From contig CADDZC010000036.1 of NCBI GenBank assembly GCA_902812365.1, positions 1 through 39,069 on the forward strand: DNA of 39,069 nt, read 5' to 3'. This DNA comes from Acidobacteriota bacterium. GTDB lineage: Bacteria > Acidobacteriota > Terriglobia > UBA7540. Numbering within the stretch: position 1 is the first letter of the stretch; each line of letters starts with the position of its first letter. Positions 3,721 through 21,325 of the stretch are shown here, one piece after another. Made by a program: the position numbers and the translations under genes. The notes beneath the pieces are model-generated. The model saw only the letters and a list, made by a program, of their open reading frames with translations. It made no database searches and was not told the origin of the DNA.

Positions 3721-3769
3721 CGCGAGCCTCCGGTCGGCTCCCGGGCGGGATGCGGCAGCGGTTTTGGGG

Positions 3770-5512
3770 TTACCTCTGAGGCGCGGCCGTGGTGTCGAAC
3801 ACGAACACCTCGTGCGCGCCGCCCAAGTCGCGCGCCGAGGGCGTAATAATGGTGCGGGAAGTCACATAAATCTTCGCCCCCCTCCGCAGGGCCACGCGAA
3901 CATCCTCCTCGCAGACAAAATCGACGGCTTTTGGACTCGAAGGGCTCGATTTGTCGCGGTGAAGGGCGGGCTCCGAGCCCGTTTGCGGGCGGTCACTGCA
4001 GCCCGCGGCGGAATCGGCTGCGGCCGCTGTCGTTGCCGGCCTCGACGCCGCTCGCCGGGCCAGAAATTGCTCGACGATGCGGGCGACTTCGGCCCGGTCG
4101 ACTGCGGGCCCCGGCCGCGGGGGCGGCGACACCGCGCCCGCCGGTACCCCACCGGCCGACGGGTGCACCGGACGCCGTTCGTAAGCCAGGCGCTTGATGT
4201 TGATCAGGTGCATCGGAGAAAGGTTATCAGAGGTAATGTTGTTGCCCGGCGTTCCACACCCGAGCGACATCGACGGGAATAACTTCGTCGAATAGCCGAT
4301 CGAGCCATGTGGCGCCGGCGTATTCACCACCAAGCGAAAGGCGGGAAGCCCGAGAGCCAGCTCGCGGATGACGGCGTCGTCGGTGGCGTGGATGGCCATG
4401 GTGTGGCCCAGGCCGCCAAATTCGAGAAGCCGCCGGCAAAAGTCCATCCCCTCCCGCCAATCCTTGACGACGTGAAAGGACAGCACCGGCGAAAGCTTCT
4501 CGGCCGACAGCGGATGCTCGCGGCCAACCCCCTCGAGCGGCGCCACCAGCGCGCGGGCCGTCGCGGGAATGGCAAAACCGGCCTCGCGCGCGATCCGCGC
4601 TGCCGACTGGCCCACCATCTTGGCGTTGACCCGGAAGTTCGGCAAAATCAAAACGCGCGCCACGGCCGCCGCTTGCTCGGGGGTGAGAAAAACTCCCCCC
4701 TGCCGTTCCAGTTCGGCCCGCGCTTGGTCGGCGACGGCGGCGTCGATCACGATGTGTTGTTCCGAAGAGCAGATCGTGCCGTGATCAAAACACTTGCCCG
4801 TCAGAATGTCGGCGACCGCCTTGGGAATGTTTGCCGAGCTATGCACGTAAGCCGGAACATTGCCCGGTCCGACGCCGAGCGCCGGTTTGCCGGAGCTGTA
4901 CGCCGACTTCACCAGGCCCGCGCCGCCCGTCGCCAAAATGATCGCGGTCAGGCGGTGCCGCATCAGCTCTTGGGTAGCCTCCATCGTCGGCAGACTCAGA
5001 CAGCTCAGGCAACCGTCCGGCGCGCCCGCCTTCACCGCCGCCTCGCTCATCACGCGAACCGTCTCTTGAATACAACGGGCGGCGCTCGGATGAGGGCTCA
5101 TCACGACGGCGTTGCGTCCTTTTAAAGCGATCAGAGCCTTAAAGATGGCCGTCGAGGTGGGATTCGTACAGGGGATAATGGCCGCGACCACCCCGGCCGG
5201 CACGGCCATCTCCACCACGCCGTTTTCAGCGTCTTCGCGGATGACGCCGACCGTCTTCAAATCCTTGATGGCAGCGTGGACGTCGCGGGAGCTGAAGAGG
5301 TTCTTCTCGATCTTGTCTTCCACCTTGCCATAAGTCGTCTCCTCGACGGCAAGCCGGGCGAGCCGTTCGGCCTCCGCTTGCGCCGCCTCCGCCATGGCCG
5401 CCACGACCAGGTCCGTCTGCTGCTGAGTAAAGCGGGCGAAAAGCTGCGCGGCCTCGGCAGCCCTCTCGACGAGACGACGCGCTTCCTGAATAGATTCCAG
5501 GTCTCGATCCAT
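3770..5512 (-). CDS. BMC-type CoA-acylating aldehyde dehydrogenase with extended C-terminus
   Basis: A 580-residue NAD-dependent enzyme of the EutE/PduP group, which converts an aldehyde plus CoA to acyl-CoA inside a bacterial microcompartment. The catalytic core covers about residues 1-465. The nucleophilic cysteine is Cys248 in FDHGTICSSEQ, and IIPCTNPTSTAIFKALIALKG is the usual cofactor-region block. Unlike PduP there is no N-terminal encapsulation peptide. Instead an Ala/Pro-rich linker follows the core and contains a short amphipathic helix (AEVARIVEQFLARR, about 474-487), a plausible internal encapsulation peptide. A last block (about 532-571) with AKIYVTSRTIITPSARDLG resembles short terminal motifs I recall from other microcompartment proteins; its function is unknown. 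The BMC-H gene lies 88 bp upstream and is probably cotranscribed. ATG 5512 has no good ribosome site, but a stop codon 63-66 bases upstream rules out a much longer start. Confidence 0.9.
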   Translation of the reverse strand: MDRDLESIQEARRLVERAAEAAQLFARFTQQQTDLVVAAMAEAAQAEAERLARLAVEETTYGKVEDKIEKNLFSSRDVHAAIKDLKTVGVIREDAENGVVEMAVPAGVVAAIIPCTNPTSTAIFKALIALKGRNAVVMSPHPSAARCIQETVRVMSEAAVKAGAPDGCLSCLSLPTMEATQELMRHRLTAIILATGGAGLVKSAYSSGKPALGVGPGNVPAYVHSSANIPKAVADILTGKCFDHGTICSSEQHIVIDAAVADQARAELERQGGVFLTPEQAAAVARVLILPNFRVNAKMVGQSAARIAREAGFAIPATARALVAPLEGVGREHPLSAEKLSPVLSFHVVKDWREGMDFCRRLLEFGGLGHTMAIHATDDAVIRELALGLPAFRLVVNTPAPHGSIGYSTKLFPSMSLGCGTPGNNITSDNLSPMHLINIKRLAYERRPVHPSAGGVPAGAVSPPPRPGPAVDRAEVARIVEQFLARRAASRPATTAAAADSAAGCSDRPQTGSEPALHRDKSSPSSPKAVDFVCEEDVRVALRRGAKIYVTSRTIITPSARDLGGAHEVFVFDTTAAPQR

Positions 5513-17133: not shown

Positions 17134-17775
17134 ATGAGAGGGAAGAAGCCAAAGGACGCCGCTCAGAAGGGCGGGAACGGCGCTGTGACCCGCCGCGACT
17201 TTCTGCGGGGTGCCAGCCTCGCCGTCTCTACCGGCCTGCTGGCCGCCGACGGCGCGGCGGTGGCCTCGCCGCCGGAATCTTCGGCGGCGGCCGTGGTGGG
17301 GCCGGGCAAGGTTCCGGTCACGCTTCGGGTCAATGGCCAGGTTCACCGGCTCGAGCTCGAACCGCGGGTCACCTTGCTCGACGCGCTGCGCAATGATCTG
17401 GATACGACCGGTTCCAAGCGCGTCTGCGATCGCGGCACCTGCGGCGCCTGCACGATGATCGTGGACGGCAAGGCCGTCTACAGTTGCAGCTTGCTGGCCA
17501 TCGAGGCCGAGGGGCGCAACATTACGACCATCGAAGGCTTAATGAAGGACGGCCGCTTGAGCCCGGTCATGCAAGCCTTCATCGACAATGACGCCCAGCA
17601 GTGCGGCTTCTGCACGCCGGGGTTTGTGATGGCCGCCACGGCCTTGCTCGCCGAGCGCCGCCATCTCACTCCGGAGGAGGTGAATCGCGGTCTCGGCGGC
17701 AATATCTGCCGCTGCGGTACCTATCACGGTTTGCGTCTGGCGGCGCTCGAAGCCGCGAAGAGGATGAAAGCCTAA
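17134..17775 (+). CDS. Tat-exported [2Fe-2S] subunit of a molybdenum hydroxylase
   Basis: A 213-residue small subunit of the xanthine dehydrogenase family, passing electrons from the Mo site to FAD. The N-terminus bears a Tat signal (VTRRDFLRGASLAVSTGL, residues 18-35). The plant-ferredoxin-like cluster uses Cys98, Cys103, Cys106 and Cys118 (CDRGTCGAC and a later Cys). The helical-domain cluster uses Cys157, Cys160, Cys192 and Cys194 (CGFC, CRC). All eight ligands are present. A Tat signal on only this subunit is the arrangement of periplasmic aldehyde oxidoreductases such as E. coli PaoABC, where the folded complex is carried across together. AAGGAG precedes ATG 17134. It is the first gene of a five-gene run. 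Confidence 0.93.
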   Translation: MRGKKPKDAAQKGGNGAVTRRDFLRGASLAVSTGLLAADGAAVASPPESSAAAVVGPGKVPVTLRVNGQVHRLELEPRVTLLDALRNDLDTTGSKRVCDRGTCGACTMIVDGKAVYSCSLLAIEAEGRNITTIEGLMKDGRLSPVMQAFIDNDAQQCGFCTPGFVMAATALLAERRHLTPEEVNRGLGGNICRCGTYHGLRLAALEAAKRMKA

Positions 17776-17875: not shown

Positions 17876-20023
17876 ATGGCAACCTGCAAATACGATTGGC
17901 CGGAGGCTGCGGAACGGCATCTCATCGGCAAGCCGATCAGCCGCATCGACGGACCCGCCAAATCGAGCGGGCGCGCCAAATATACTTACGACATCAATCG
18001 TCCCGGAATGCTGTTCGGCAAAGTCTTGCGGTGCCCTCACGCGCACGCCAAGGTCACCTCGATTGACATTTCCGAGGCCAAGAACCTGCCCGGCGTCAAA
18101 GCGGTGCGCGTGATCCAGGGAGAGGGCAAGGAAATCCTGTGGGGGGGCGACGAAATCGCCTGTGTGGCGGCGGTCAGCGAAGAGGTGGCCGAAGACGCTA
18201 TCCGCAGGATCAAGGTGCAGTACGAGGAACTGCCCTTTCTCGTCAACGAAGAAGACCTGGAGCGCGCCCAATCCCAGGGCCACACCCGCGCGCCTTCGGT
18301 GCAAACCAAAGGGGATCCGGATAAAGCCTTCGCCGACCCGGACGTGGTGATCTCCGAGGGTTATTACGGCGCCCCGGTCATCACCCATTGCTGCCTGGAA
18401 ACCCATGGCCAGGTGACCGAGTATGACGGTTCCGACCACCTGCGGGTGTGGATTTCCACCCAGGGGGTCTCCACCATCCCGCAGCAGTTCGCCGAGGTGC
18501 TGGGGCTGCCGGCGACCCATGTCGAGGCGATCTGTGATTACATCGGAGGCGGCTTCGGCAGCAAGTTCCAGATTGACCGCTGGGGCGTCGAGTGCGCCCG
18601 CCTGTCGAAGGACGCGGGGGGCAAGGCGGTGAAGCTGATGCTCGAGCGGGACGCGGAGTTGAAAGTGGCGGGCACGCGCCCCTCGGCGTTTGCCAAGGTC
18701 AAGGTGGCGGCCAAGAAAGACGGCACGCTGGTGGCGTGGCAATCAGAGGCCTGGGGGACGGGCGGCGTCGCCGGCGCGGGAGTTCCTCCGCTGCCTTACG
18801 TGCTCGAGGGCATCCCCAATCAGAGCAAGAAATACACGGCCGTCAGCACCAACACGGGCGGAGCCCGCGCCTGGCGCGCGCCGAATCATCCTCAGGCGGC
18901 GGTGCTCACCCTGTGCGCGCTGGATGACCTGGCCGCCAAGCTCGAGATGGACCCGATCGAGTTTCTCACCAAGAACACCGGGCTGGCTCCCGAGCACCTC
19001 GGCGAGACTTATAACGACGAGCTGGCTAAAGTGGCGGAGCTTTCCGAGTGGAAGAAGTACTGGCATCCGCGCGGTCGGGGCGGTTCGGGGCGCATCCGGC
19101 GCGGACTGGGCGTCTCGATCCACACCTGGGGCGGTCGCGGGCATAACAGCAATTGCGACGTCCTGATTCAGCCGGACGGCTCGGTGGAAGTGAGGCTGGG
19201 CAGCCAGGACCTCGGCACCGGCACTCGCACGGTAATTGCGATCGTGGCCGCGGAGACTTTGGGACTGCCGGTCGAGGCCATCAAAGTGACGCTGGGCGAC
19301 AGCCGCTATCCGTACTCGGGCGCCTCGGGGGGCAGCACCACGGTCGGCGGGGTGTCGGCCTCCACTCGGCGCGGCAGCGTGGACGCGCGCGATCAGCTCT
19401 TCGCGGCCGTAGCCCCGGCGCTCGGCGTTCCACCCGACCAACTGGAGGCGGCCGCCGGCCACATTCGCGTAAAGGGCAACCCGGCCAAAAGCCTGAGCTG
19501 GAAACAAGCCTGCGCCCGGCTGGGCACCAAGACGATTCAGGCCACCGGCAAGAATCCCGGCCCGTGCGAACTCGGATCGAGCGGCGTTGGGGGCGCGCAG
19601 GTGGCCGATGTTTCGGTGGACACGGAGACGGGCCGCATCAAGGTCAACCGGATGATCGCGGCGCAGGACTGCGGTTTGATCATCGACATGAAGACGGCGG
19701 AGAGCCAGGTTTACGGGGCGATGATCATGGGCATCAGTTACGCCCTGTTCGAAGAACGGGTGATGGATGACCAGACGGGCATCATGCTGAATCCCAACAT
19801 GGAATTTTACAAGCTGGCCACCATCGGCGACATCCCCGAGTTCATCGTTCACATGATGACCGGACCCCAATACGACCGCCGCGGCGTGATCGGCCTGGGC
19901 GAGCCGCCGGTGATTTCGCCCGGGGCCGCCATCTCGAACGCCGTCGCCAACGCCATCGGTGTTCGTGTGCCGACGCTGCCGCTGACGCCCGACAAAGTGC
20001 TGGCGGCGCTGGAAAAGGCCTGA
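17876..20023 (+). CDS. Molybdopterin-binding catalytic subunit of a xanthine dehydrogenase-family enzyme
   Basis: A 715-residue large subunit that hydroxylates an aldehyde or N-heterocycle at a Mo-cofactor with water as oxygen source. The N-terminal block GKPISRIDGPAKSSGRAKYTYD and the later GGGFGSK and QDLGTGT segments are cofactor-binding regions. Glu676 in GEPPV matches the general-base glutamate of the family. The AYRCSFR loop of CO dehydrogenase is absent and ARAWRAPNHP lies in the equivalent place, so this is not a CoxL-type CO dehydrogenase. No signal peptide is visible, consistent with joint export with the Tat-tagged small subunit. GAGGAGG sits before ATG 17876. The substrate is not predictable from sequence; aldehyde oxidation is the best guess. 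Confidence 0.92.
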   Translation: MATCKYDWPEAAERHLIGKPISRIDGPAKSSGRAKYTYDINRPGMLFGKVLRCPHAHAKVTSIDISEAKNLPGVKAVRVIQGEGKEILWGGDEIACVAAVSEEVAEDAIRRIKVQYEELPFLVNEEDLERAQSQGHTRAPSVQTKGDPDKAFADPDVVISEGYYGAPVITHCCLETHGQVTEYDGSDHLRVWISTQGVSTIPQQFAEVLGLPATHVEAICDYIGGGFGSKFQIDRWGVECARLSKDAGGKAVKLMLERDAELKVAGTRPSAFAKVKVAAKKDGTLVAWQSEAWGTGGVAGAGVPPLPYVLEGIPNQSKKYTAVSTNTGGARAWRAPNHPQAAVLTLCALDDLAAKLEMDPIEFLTKNTGLAPEHLGETYNDELAKVAELSEWKKYWHPRGRGGSGRIRRGLGVSIHTWGGRGHNSNCDVLIQPDGSVEVRLGSQDLGTGTRTVIAIVAAETLGLPVEAIKVTLGDSRYPYSGASGGSTTVGGVSASTRRGSVDARDQLFAAVAPALGVPPDQLEAAAGHIRVKGNPAKSLSWKQACARLGTKTIQATGKNPGPCELGSSGVGGAQVADVSVDTETGRIKVNRMIAAQDCGLIIDMKTAESQVYGAMIMGISYALFEERVMDDQTGIMLNPNMEFYKLATIGDIPEFIVHMMTGPQYDRRGVIGLGEPPVISPGAAISNAVANAIGVRVPTLPLTPDKVLAALEKA

Positions 20024-20072: not shown

Positions 20073-21068
20073 ATGCAAGCATTTGAGTACGCGCGACCCA
20101 AAACCGCCCAGGAAGCGGTCGCGTTGCTGGCTTCGGAATGGGGTAAGAGCGAGCTGCTGGCCGGCGGCAGCGATCTGCTGTCGCGGATGAAAGATGACGT
20201 CTCCGCGCCCCAGCGAATTGTGAGCCTGAGCGGTGTCCATGAACTGCGCGGCATCGCCGCTTCGGCGCGCGGCCTGCGGCTCGGAGCCCTGGTCACGCTC
20301 GACGAGCTTGAAACGCATCCGGCGGTGCGGGAGCACTATGCGGGCATCGCGCAGGCGGTCGAGCAGGTTGGCGGCCCCCAGATTCGCAACGTCGGCACCG
20401 TGGGCGGGAATCTGTGCCAGCGTCCCCGCTGCTGGTATTACCGCAACGGCTTCGGCCTGCTCGCCACGTATAAGGGCCGGCCGCTGGTGCCCGACGGCGA
20501 CAATCGCTATCACGCCATCTTCGGCAACGAAGGCCCGGCGTATTTCGTCAGCCCGTCGAGCCTGGCGCCCATTTTGATCGCCCTGGGAGCCAGCTTGCGC
20601 CTGCTCGGTCCGGACGGCCCGCGCGACCTGCCCGTCGAGCAATTTTTCGTAACGCCCAAATCGGAAGCCGAACGCGAGCACGCCATCAAGCCGAACGAAG
20701 TCATCACGGAAGTCCTGGTGCCGCCGGCGAACGGCACCAAGAGCGGTTTTTACGAAATTCTGCAGAAGGAGTCTCTGGACTGGCCGCTGGCGATGGCGGC
20801 CGTGGCGCTGCAGATGGAGGGCCGCCGGGTGGAAAAGGCGCGGGTGGTGCTCGGCCAGGTGGCGCCGGTACCGTGGCCGTCGGCGGAGGCGGAAGAAGCC
20901 TTGAAAGGAAAGATGGTCAGCGAAGAGGTGGCCGAGGAGGCGGGGAGAGCGGCGGCCAGCAAGGCAACGCCCCTCAGCAAGAACAAATACAAGGTGCAGC
21001 TGGCTCGAGTGGCCGTCAAGCGCGCCGTGCTGCTCGCGGCCGGGCTAGTGAAGAAAGGGGAGGTGTGA
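20073..21068 (+). CDS. FAD-binding subunit of the molybdenum hydroxylase
   Basis: A 331-residue medium subunit. FAD-binding loops are AGGSDLL (30-36) and VGTVGGNLCQ (107-116), and the C-terminal CO-dehydrogenase flavoprotein domain covers about 220-325. In PaoB and HcrB this region carries an inserted [4Fe-4S] site with four cysteines. Here the NLCQRPRCWYYRNG segment keeps only Cys115 and Cys120, and the loop that follows (LLATYKGRPLVPDGDNRYHAIFG) has none. The enzyme therefore probably has no extra cluster. GGAGG precedes ATG 20073, 49 bp after the large-subunit stop. Confidence 0.92.
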   Translation: MQAFEYARPKTAQEAVALLASEWGKSELLAGGSDLLSRMKDDVSAPQRIVSLSGVHELRGIAASARGLRLGALVTLDELETHPAVREHYAGIAQAVEQVGGPQIRNVGTVGGNLCQRPRCWYYRNGFGLLATYKGRPLVPDGDNRYHAIFGNEGPAYFVSPSSLAPILIALGASLRLLGPDGPRDLPVEQFFVTPKSEAEREHAIKPNEVITEVLVPPANGTKSGFYEILQKESLDWPLAMAAVALQMEGRRVEKARVVLGQVAPVPWPSAEAEEALKGKMVSEEVAEEAGRAAASKATPLSKNKYKVQLARVAVKRAVLLAAGLVKKGEV

Positions 21069-21070
21069 CG

Positions 21071-21325
21071 ATGGCTGGCGAAACCATACTGCCGAGCGTC
21101 CTCCAGCCGGCGGCCGAGGCCGCGCCGGCGGCCACGCCCGAGGTGTGCAAGCACTTGCGCTCCAAAGAAATGTATATTCATGTCGACGAGCCGGATTGGA
21201 ACGTCTACCAGTCTCACAGCGGTATTTTCTGGTGCCTCCACACCCAAAAGGCCGTGGGACCGGACGGCCGCACCGCCGAGCCTCACACCTGCACCGCGGC
21301 GCGGCCCTGTTTCGAAGCTCTCTGA
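21071..21325 (+). CDS. Small four-cysteine protein of unknown function in the Mo-hydroxylase operon
   Basis: An 84-residue protein I do not recognise. The start ATG lies two bases after the FAD-subunit stop codon and is preceded by GGGGAGG, so it is surely translated with the operon. Four cysteines (Cys26, Cys55, Cys74, Cys80) are each followed or preceded by nearby histidines (CKH, CLH, HTC), a layout that could bind a metal or an iron-sulfur cluster. The N-terminal 24 residues are Ala/Pro-rich and look disordered. There is no signal peptide. It could be a maturation factor, an electron-transfer partner or a small extra subunit; the sequence alone does not decide. Confidence 0.82.
   Translation: MAGETILPSVLQPAAEAAPAATPEVCKHLRSKEMYIHVDEPDWNVYQSHSGIFWCLHTQKAVGPDGRTAEPHTCTAARPCFEAL

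Follow-up and report, generated by a model that had tools for sequence, protein, structure and literature searches.

Genes and features of the locus

The window analyzed here is the whole 39,069-nucleotide stretch of contig CADDZC010000036.1 from assembly GCA_902812365.1, assigned to an Acidobacteriota bacterium; the genomes nearest to it are Acidobacteriota MAGs. On its forward strand lie genes for the iron-sulfur (FeS), molybdenum, and FAD subunits of an enzyme, followed by a gene for an 84-residue protein with four cysteines, referred to here as P84, and a gene for a MOSC-domain protein (Table 1). Pfam and PDB matches placed xanthine-oxidase-family domains in all three subunits. The FeS subunit matched the twin-arginine (Tat) signal model TAT_signal_seq (TIGR01409), and its match to the PaoA model NF008514 was below the cut-off. 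The best PDB match of the molybdenum subunit was PaoC (5g5h_C; E = 1.2e-73), while the FAD subunit matched 5y6q_B, 1rm6_B (E = 3e-35), and 5g5g_B. None of the subunits in the window reached an NCBIfam equivalog cut-off (PaoA, PaoC, XdhA, and similar), so these models assign no substrate to the enzyme. On these homologies, the operon encodes a PaoABC-like molybdenum hydroxylase of the xanthine oxidase family. A second molybdenum hydroxylase encoded in the source genome (contig C5) has no P84. Many Terriglobia relatives (L078, L081, L083, L084, L086, and L092) have an extra ~70 to 80 residues near the N-terminal third of the molybdenum subunit that the window protein lacks.

TABLE 1 Coordinates of the features at the P84 locus
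Feature	Position in window	Strand	Evidence
Two-[2Fe-2S] (FeS) subunit, PaoA-like, with N-terminal Tat motif TRRDFLRG	17134..17775	+	PF01799 (5e-26), PF00111
Molybdenum-cofactor subunit, PaoC-like	17876..20023	+	PF20256 (3e-56), PF02738 (9e-45)
FAD subunit, PaoB/HCR-beta-like	20073..21068	+	PF00941 (2.8e-41), PF03450
Shine-Dalgarno-like GGGGAGG before P84, within the 3' end of the FAD gene	21056..21062	+	Sequence
P84, 84-residue four-cysteine protein	21071..21325	+	Open reading frame, conservation, operon linkage; no Pfam or NCBIfam match
MOSC-domain protein, 14 bases 3' of P84	21340..21936	+	PF03473 (1.2e-10)

The open reading frame of the FAD subunit ends in TGA, and the ATG of P84 follows after two bases. 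The sequence 5' of P84, gaaaggggaggtgtgacg, contains the ribosome site GGGGAGG. Both the spacing and the strong ribosome site had been pointed out in an earlier note on this DNA and are plainly seen in the sequence. Across 85 loci, the P84 start was found between -4 and +15 nt from the FAD stop in 79, so translational coupling of the two genes is likely; the further claim that P84 is made in step with the enzyme is probably correct. Three loci from two lineages (L015, L029, and L117) had gaps of 640 to 930 nt between the FAD gene and P84. At L117, an unrelated gene for 287 amino acids (positions 3725 to 4588) lies in between; the gaps at L029 and L015 are similar, and no long gap of another kind was observed.

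Distribution of P84 and linkage to FeS-Mo-FAD operons

In searches with tblastn and a hidden Markov model (HMM), 60 of 101 relatives and 60 of 297 genomes from the phylum had a P84 homologue, with a few of the weakest matches being spurious. A close-relative scan of the genome_contigs collection with P84 alone gave no match; a tighter alignment then yielded 97 confirmed relatives from a scan of 84,980 species genomes. The 80 that were kept are labelled Acidobacteria almost throughout. No P84 homologue was found on plasmids. Six carriers were identified among 249 genomes from the phylum of a Gemmatimonadetes-labelled MAG (L120), and this second P84-bearing phylum is probably Gemmatimonadota. 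The P84 protein of L120 is identical to that of an Acidobacteria MAG (L121), and one of the two contigs may therefore be mis-binned; the other five carriers have divergent P84 genes in the same operon place and likewise linked to the operon.

P84 followed the FAD gene on the same strand at 58 of 59 whole-genome loci, with FeS and molybdenum genes ahead of it wherever the contig reached that far, and stood directly behind FeS-Mo-FAD genes in 78 of the 80 genome_contigs homologues. The three unlinked loci in these two sets are at or near contig ends. When the weakest matches were fetched on purpose, they proved to be either operon-linked or antisense noise; the latter include the matches in two genomes (G214 and G172) that lay away from such operons. 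An apparent FAD-P84 fusion in another genome (G118, open frame 1294) was resolved as a separate, ordinary gene after the FAD gene, the long frame being an effect of high GC content. The order of the operons is thus FeS-Mo-FAD-P84, with P84 last and usually overlapping or nearly touching the FAD stop. The earlier note had placed P84 within a molybdenum hydroxylase operon and named a scatter of homologues away from such enzymes as evidence to the contrary; we found the homologues beside xdh-type genes, behind the FAD gene of FeS-Mo-FAD operons, and the view that P84 is built into the enzyme operon is well supported genetically. Downstream, a DUF1326 gene lies ~300 bp 3' of P84 in ~50 of the 80 relatives (L060 to L139), followed in ~40 of the 80 by a second conserved unnamed gene; the window has neither.

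Linkage this strict, together with restriction to one enzyme lineage (see below), is as expected of a dedicated maturation factor as of a subunit. P84 might then be a cytoplasmic assembly or proofreading factor outside the final enzyme, loading clusters into the FeS or FAD subunit or keeping the Tat signal in check before cofactor insertion is complete. P84 has no signal peptide of its own, and there is a precedent in PaoD, which is encoded last in its operon and is not a subunit (PMC3958847). However, P84 is smaller than known dedicated chaperones, its invariant tryptophan, cysteine, and GPD positions suggest a single rigid folded core, and the occurrence of XdhC-type chaperones in the genome and, in some operons, beside P84 means that the cofactor-insertion role is already taken. 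We consider an assembly factor possible but unlikely.

Conservation and predicted structure of P84

Neither the window protein alone nor 35 members of the family matched Pfam or NCBIfam, and a literature search found no paper naming such an enzyme component. P84 is a real family with no Pfam or NCBIfam name. Among 145 recovered genes (117 distinct), nine residues were invariant: C26, W54, C55, G63, P64, D65, C74, R78, and C80. Two more were nearly so (K32 in 144 and R30 in 140). The cysteine frame of the window protein, C26-x28-C55-x18-C74-x5-C80, varies in the family as C-x(23-38)-C-x18-C-x(5-7)-C, with the middle spacing of 18 constant, and members are 63 to 103 residues long. Loss of conservation at the cysteines, which the earlier note had named as a finding that would count against it, was not seen, all four being kept in 145/145 genes. 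Its suggestion that the cysteines are paired with histidines was not borne out: H28 (14/145) and H72 (5/145), which adjoin cysteines, are not conserved, and only H57 is partly kept (114/145). A fifth cysteine, in an NCLGPDG motif, is common in the P84 of relatives without the FAD-subunit loop described below and is missing in the window. Many Terriglobia P84 proteins (L067 to L113) carry an extra C-terminal CHGTGKCG motif, which adds more cysteines as well as a histidine.

AlphaFold2 modeling of P84 with 49 natural sequences predicted a compact little-strand fold, with a mean pLDDT of 84 and values of >90 in most of the core. A Foldseek search of this model against the PDB returned no match; given how small and irregular the domain is, this is not proof that the fold is new. 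The fold look-up otherwise gave only a viral match (E = 5.5) that we regard as meaningless. The P84 profile found no relative among PDB sequences, its two matches to potassium channels (E ~1) being due to chance. In a model of FAD subunit and P84 as one read-through polypeptide (natural DNA of L115, with the stop read as glycine), the pTM was 0.80. By our own estimate, an undocked P84 would give roughly the same value of 0.80, so the model speaks neither for nor against docking of P84 on the FAD subunit alone.

Models of high-potential iron-sulfur protein (HiPIP), rubredoxin, 4Fe-4S ferredoxin, and zinc ribbon gave no match to P84 at E <= 1. P84 is like these proteins in size and number of cysteines but differs from them in cysteine spacing and has no match to their families or folds. 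The invariant frame contains no CxxC, and to our knowledge the spacing fits no textbook Fe-S or zinc motif. Binding of a metal or cluster by the four-cysteine (Cys4) site, as the earlier note had suggested, is plausible.

Export of the enzyme

Of 73 relatives, 67 have a twin-arginine motif ahead of the FeS domain, and three of the remaining six are cut by contig ends. P84 members lack both a hydrophobic segment (the highest Kyte-Doolittle mean over 15 residues was 1.2) and an export signal of their own. In PaoABC, signal-less PaoB and PaoC are carried out by PaoA as hitch-hikers (PMC4273604). By analogy, the simplest export route for P84 would be Tat hitch-hiking. The c-type cytochrome gene found upstream in 11 of the 80 relatives and the downstream DUF1326 genes (~50/80) agree with a periplasmic setting.

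The same cytochrome genes would suit periplasmic disposal of electrons, and together with the four invariant cysteines they might point to P84 as a separate small redox carrier, periplasmic or cytoplasmic, that takes the enzyme's electrons in a ferredoxin- or HiPIP-like role and is not a subunit. However, P84 matched no HiPIP, ferredoxin, or rubredoxin model, its cysteine spacing differs from theirs, and free export is hard to explain since P84 lacks an export signal of its own. Such a carrier appears improbable.

XdhC/PaoD-type chaperones and the MOSC protein

The earlier note had reported XdhC/PaoD-type chaperones to be absent from this run of genes and suggested that P84 and the MOSC protein might take their place. 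The window operon indeed has no XdhC gene, but elsewhere in the genome, on contig C90, an XdhC gene adjoins a MobA-like NTP transferase gene. XdhC also adjoins P84 itself at several loci (L053, L056, and L158 to L166), lying 3' of it in L053, L056, and five loci of the second phylum, and the direct neighborhood of the two genes in several operons implies that both are used together. The XdhC/PaoD domains PF02625 and PF13478 gave no match in P84 or in the 35 members. The MOSC gene was beside P84 in the window only and absent from every other P84 locus examined, so we rejected the MOSC protein as a conserved partner. Since XdhC is present in the genome and beside P84 elsewhere, and MOSC is confined to the window, the proposal that the two proteins replace XdhC/PaoD as factors for sulfuration and insertion of the molybdenum cofactor is no longer tenable in our view; the lack of XdhC in the window operon speaks for it, and we regard it as highly improbable.

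P84 and loss of the [4Fe-4S] loop in the FAD subunit

FAD-subunit homologues and their downstream DNA were drawn from 149 genomes of the phylum. P84 HMM scores just 3' of the FAD gene were bimodal (at least 39 or at most 5). When 85 FAD subunits (43 with and 42 without P84) were placed in a maximum-likelihood tree, P84 status changed three times, compared to 28.6 times with shuffled labels, and in one clade all 36 members had P84. Distances between P84 proteins correlated with those between FAD subunits (r = 0.78; permutations, <=0.13). P84 marks one lineage of FAD subunits.

A loop in the FAD subunit PaoB carries an extra [4Fe-4S] cluster. The same holds for the loop of HCR-beta, according to a reference listed in PMC2997495. 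The window FAD subunit has one of the four cluster-loop cysteines left, in PRCWYYR. FAD relatives without P84 have three to five loop cysteines, and none of these 42 has lost the loop. Of the 43 FAD subunits with P84, 20 have at least three loop cysteines and 23 have two or fewer. Those 23, every FAD subunit in the tree with so few loop cysteines, form a single clade (support, 100/100) nested in the P84-bearing group. Loop-loss subunits were observed in the window (positions 20073 to 21068), L039, L046, L052, L053, and L184 to L236, and some relatives (L007, L025 to L027, and L109) have no loop cysteine at all. The deep, early-branching operons with P84 retain all four loop cysteines, and because P84 also occurs with an intact loop, it predates the loss. 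The loop was thus lost once in the lineage, with P84 kept in every case.

The loop-loss clade is nested in the P84 lineage, and all of its members have P84, so P84 may have made the [4Fe-4S] loop dispensable. Loop loss is one event in the tree and does not count as independent evidence, so this link is suggested, not proven. One explanation, a variant of the fourth-subunit reading, would be that P84 is a structural peptide, stabilized by zinc or disulfides and with no redox role, that occupies the position of the lost loop. The occurrence of P84 with 23 of 23 loop-poor FAD subunits, and of loop loss in 0 of 42 subunits without P84, fits this explanation, but P84 is present with intact loops, and thus older than the loss, and the loss is a single branch. 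We consider a purely structural peptide rather unlikely. A direct replacement of the loop in trans is likewise weakened by the four cysteines retained in deep P84-bearing operons.

Comparison with known systems and a proposed role

One of the closest comparisons is E. coli PaoABC(D) (5g5g/5g5h; PMC3958847 and PMC4273604), with which the window operon shares homologous FeS, FAD, and molybdenum subunits and a Tat motif confined to the FeS subunit. Unlike the window lineage, with its FeS-Mo-FAD-P84 order, the E. coli operon has paoD as its last gene and nothing that corresponds to P84, and three of the four cluster-loop cysteines are missing from the window FAD subunit. 4-Hydroxybenzoyl-CoA reductase (1rm6) is related through its FAD subunit and shares the cluster loop with relatives lacking P84 and with early-branching relatives that have it; however, it has three subunits only, and the loop is lost in the window. 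The XdhC/PaoD/CoxI family (PF02625/PF13478) resembles P84 in being encoded alongside molybdenum hydroxylases but consists of proteins of ~300 residues with a Rossmann domain, to which the far shorter P84 has no match, and the two co-occur.

The exported molybdenum enzyme probably has a fourth part, P84, that has been overlooked. The reading that we favor, from sequence and gene context, is that a Tat-exported, PaoABC-like Mo-Fe-S-flavin hydroxylase has P84 as a dedicated fourth component, likeliest a small subunit bearing a Cys4 site (probability, roughly 0.55, a value that includes the purely structural variant). P84 would be synthesized beside the nascent FAD subunit and, in the cytoplasm, would fold onto the complex around a Cys4 site that might hold a metal ion or an Fe-S cluster or form two disulfides after export. 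Like PaoB and PaoC, it would then cross the membrane with the complex, using the FeS subunit's Tat signal. Its function could be to stabilize the flavin side or to serve as the exit for electrons to a periplasmic acceptor. A bolder version, in which P84 represents a new class of small electron-exit subunit in exported molybdenum hydroxylases, with an Fe-S cluster or metal and a novel cysteine frame, whose presence let one large clade drop the FAD [4Fe-4S] cluster, is tentative, and we think it doubtful.

Considering that P84 never leaves one enzyme lineage, it would be an overlooked component of exported molybdenum hydroxylases in bacteria that abound in soils and groundwater; having no Pfam or NCBIfam name, it is missed by annotation pipelines. 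The lineage offers three clades for comparison, namely P84 without the loop, both together, and the loop alone. A redox site in P84, if there is one, would be relevant to the fate of the electrons from these periplasmic enzymes and to the purpose of the extra [4Fe-4S] cluster in FAD subunits of the PaoB/HCR type.
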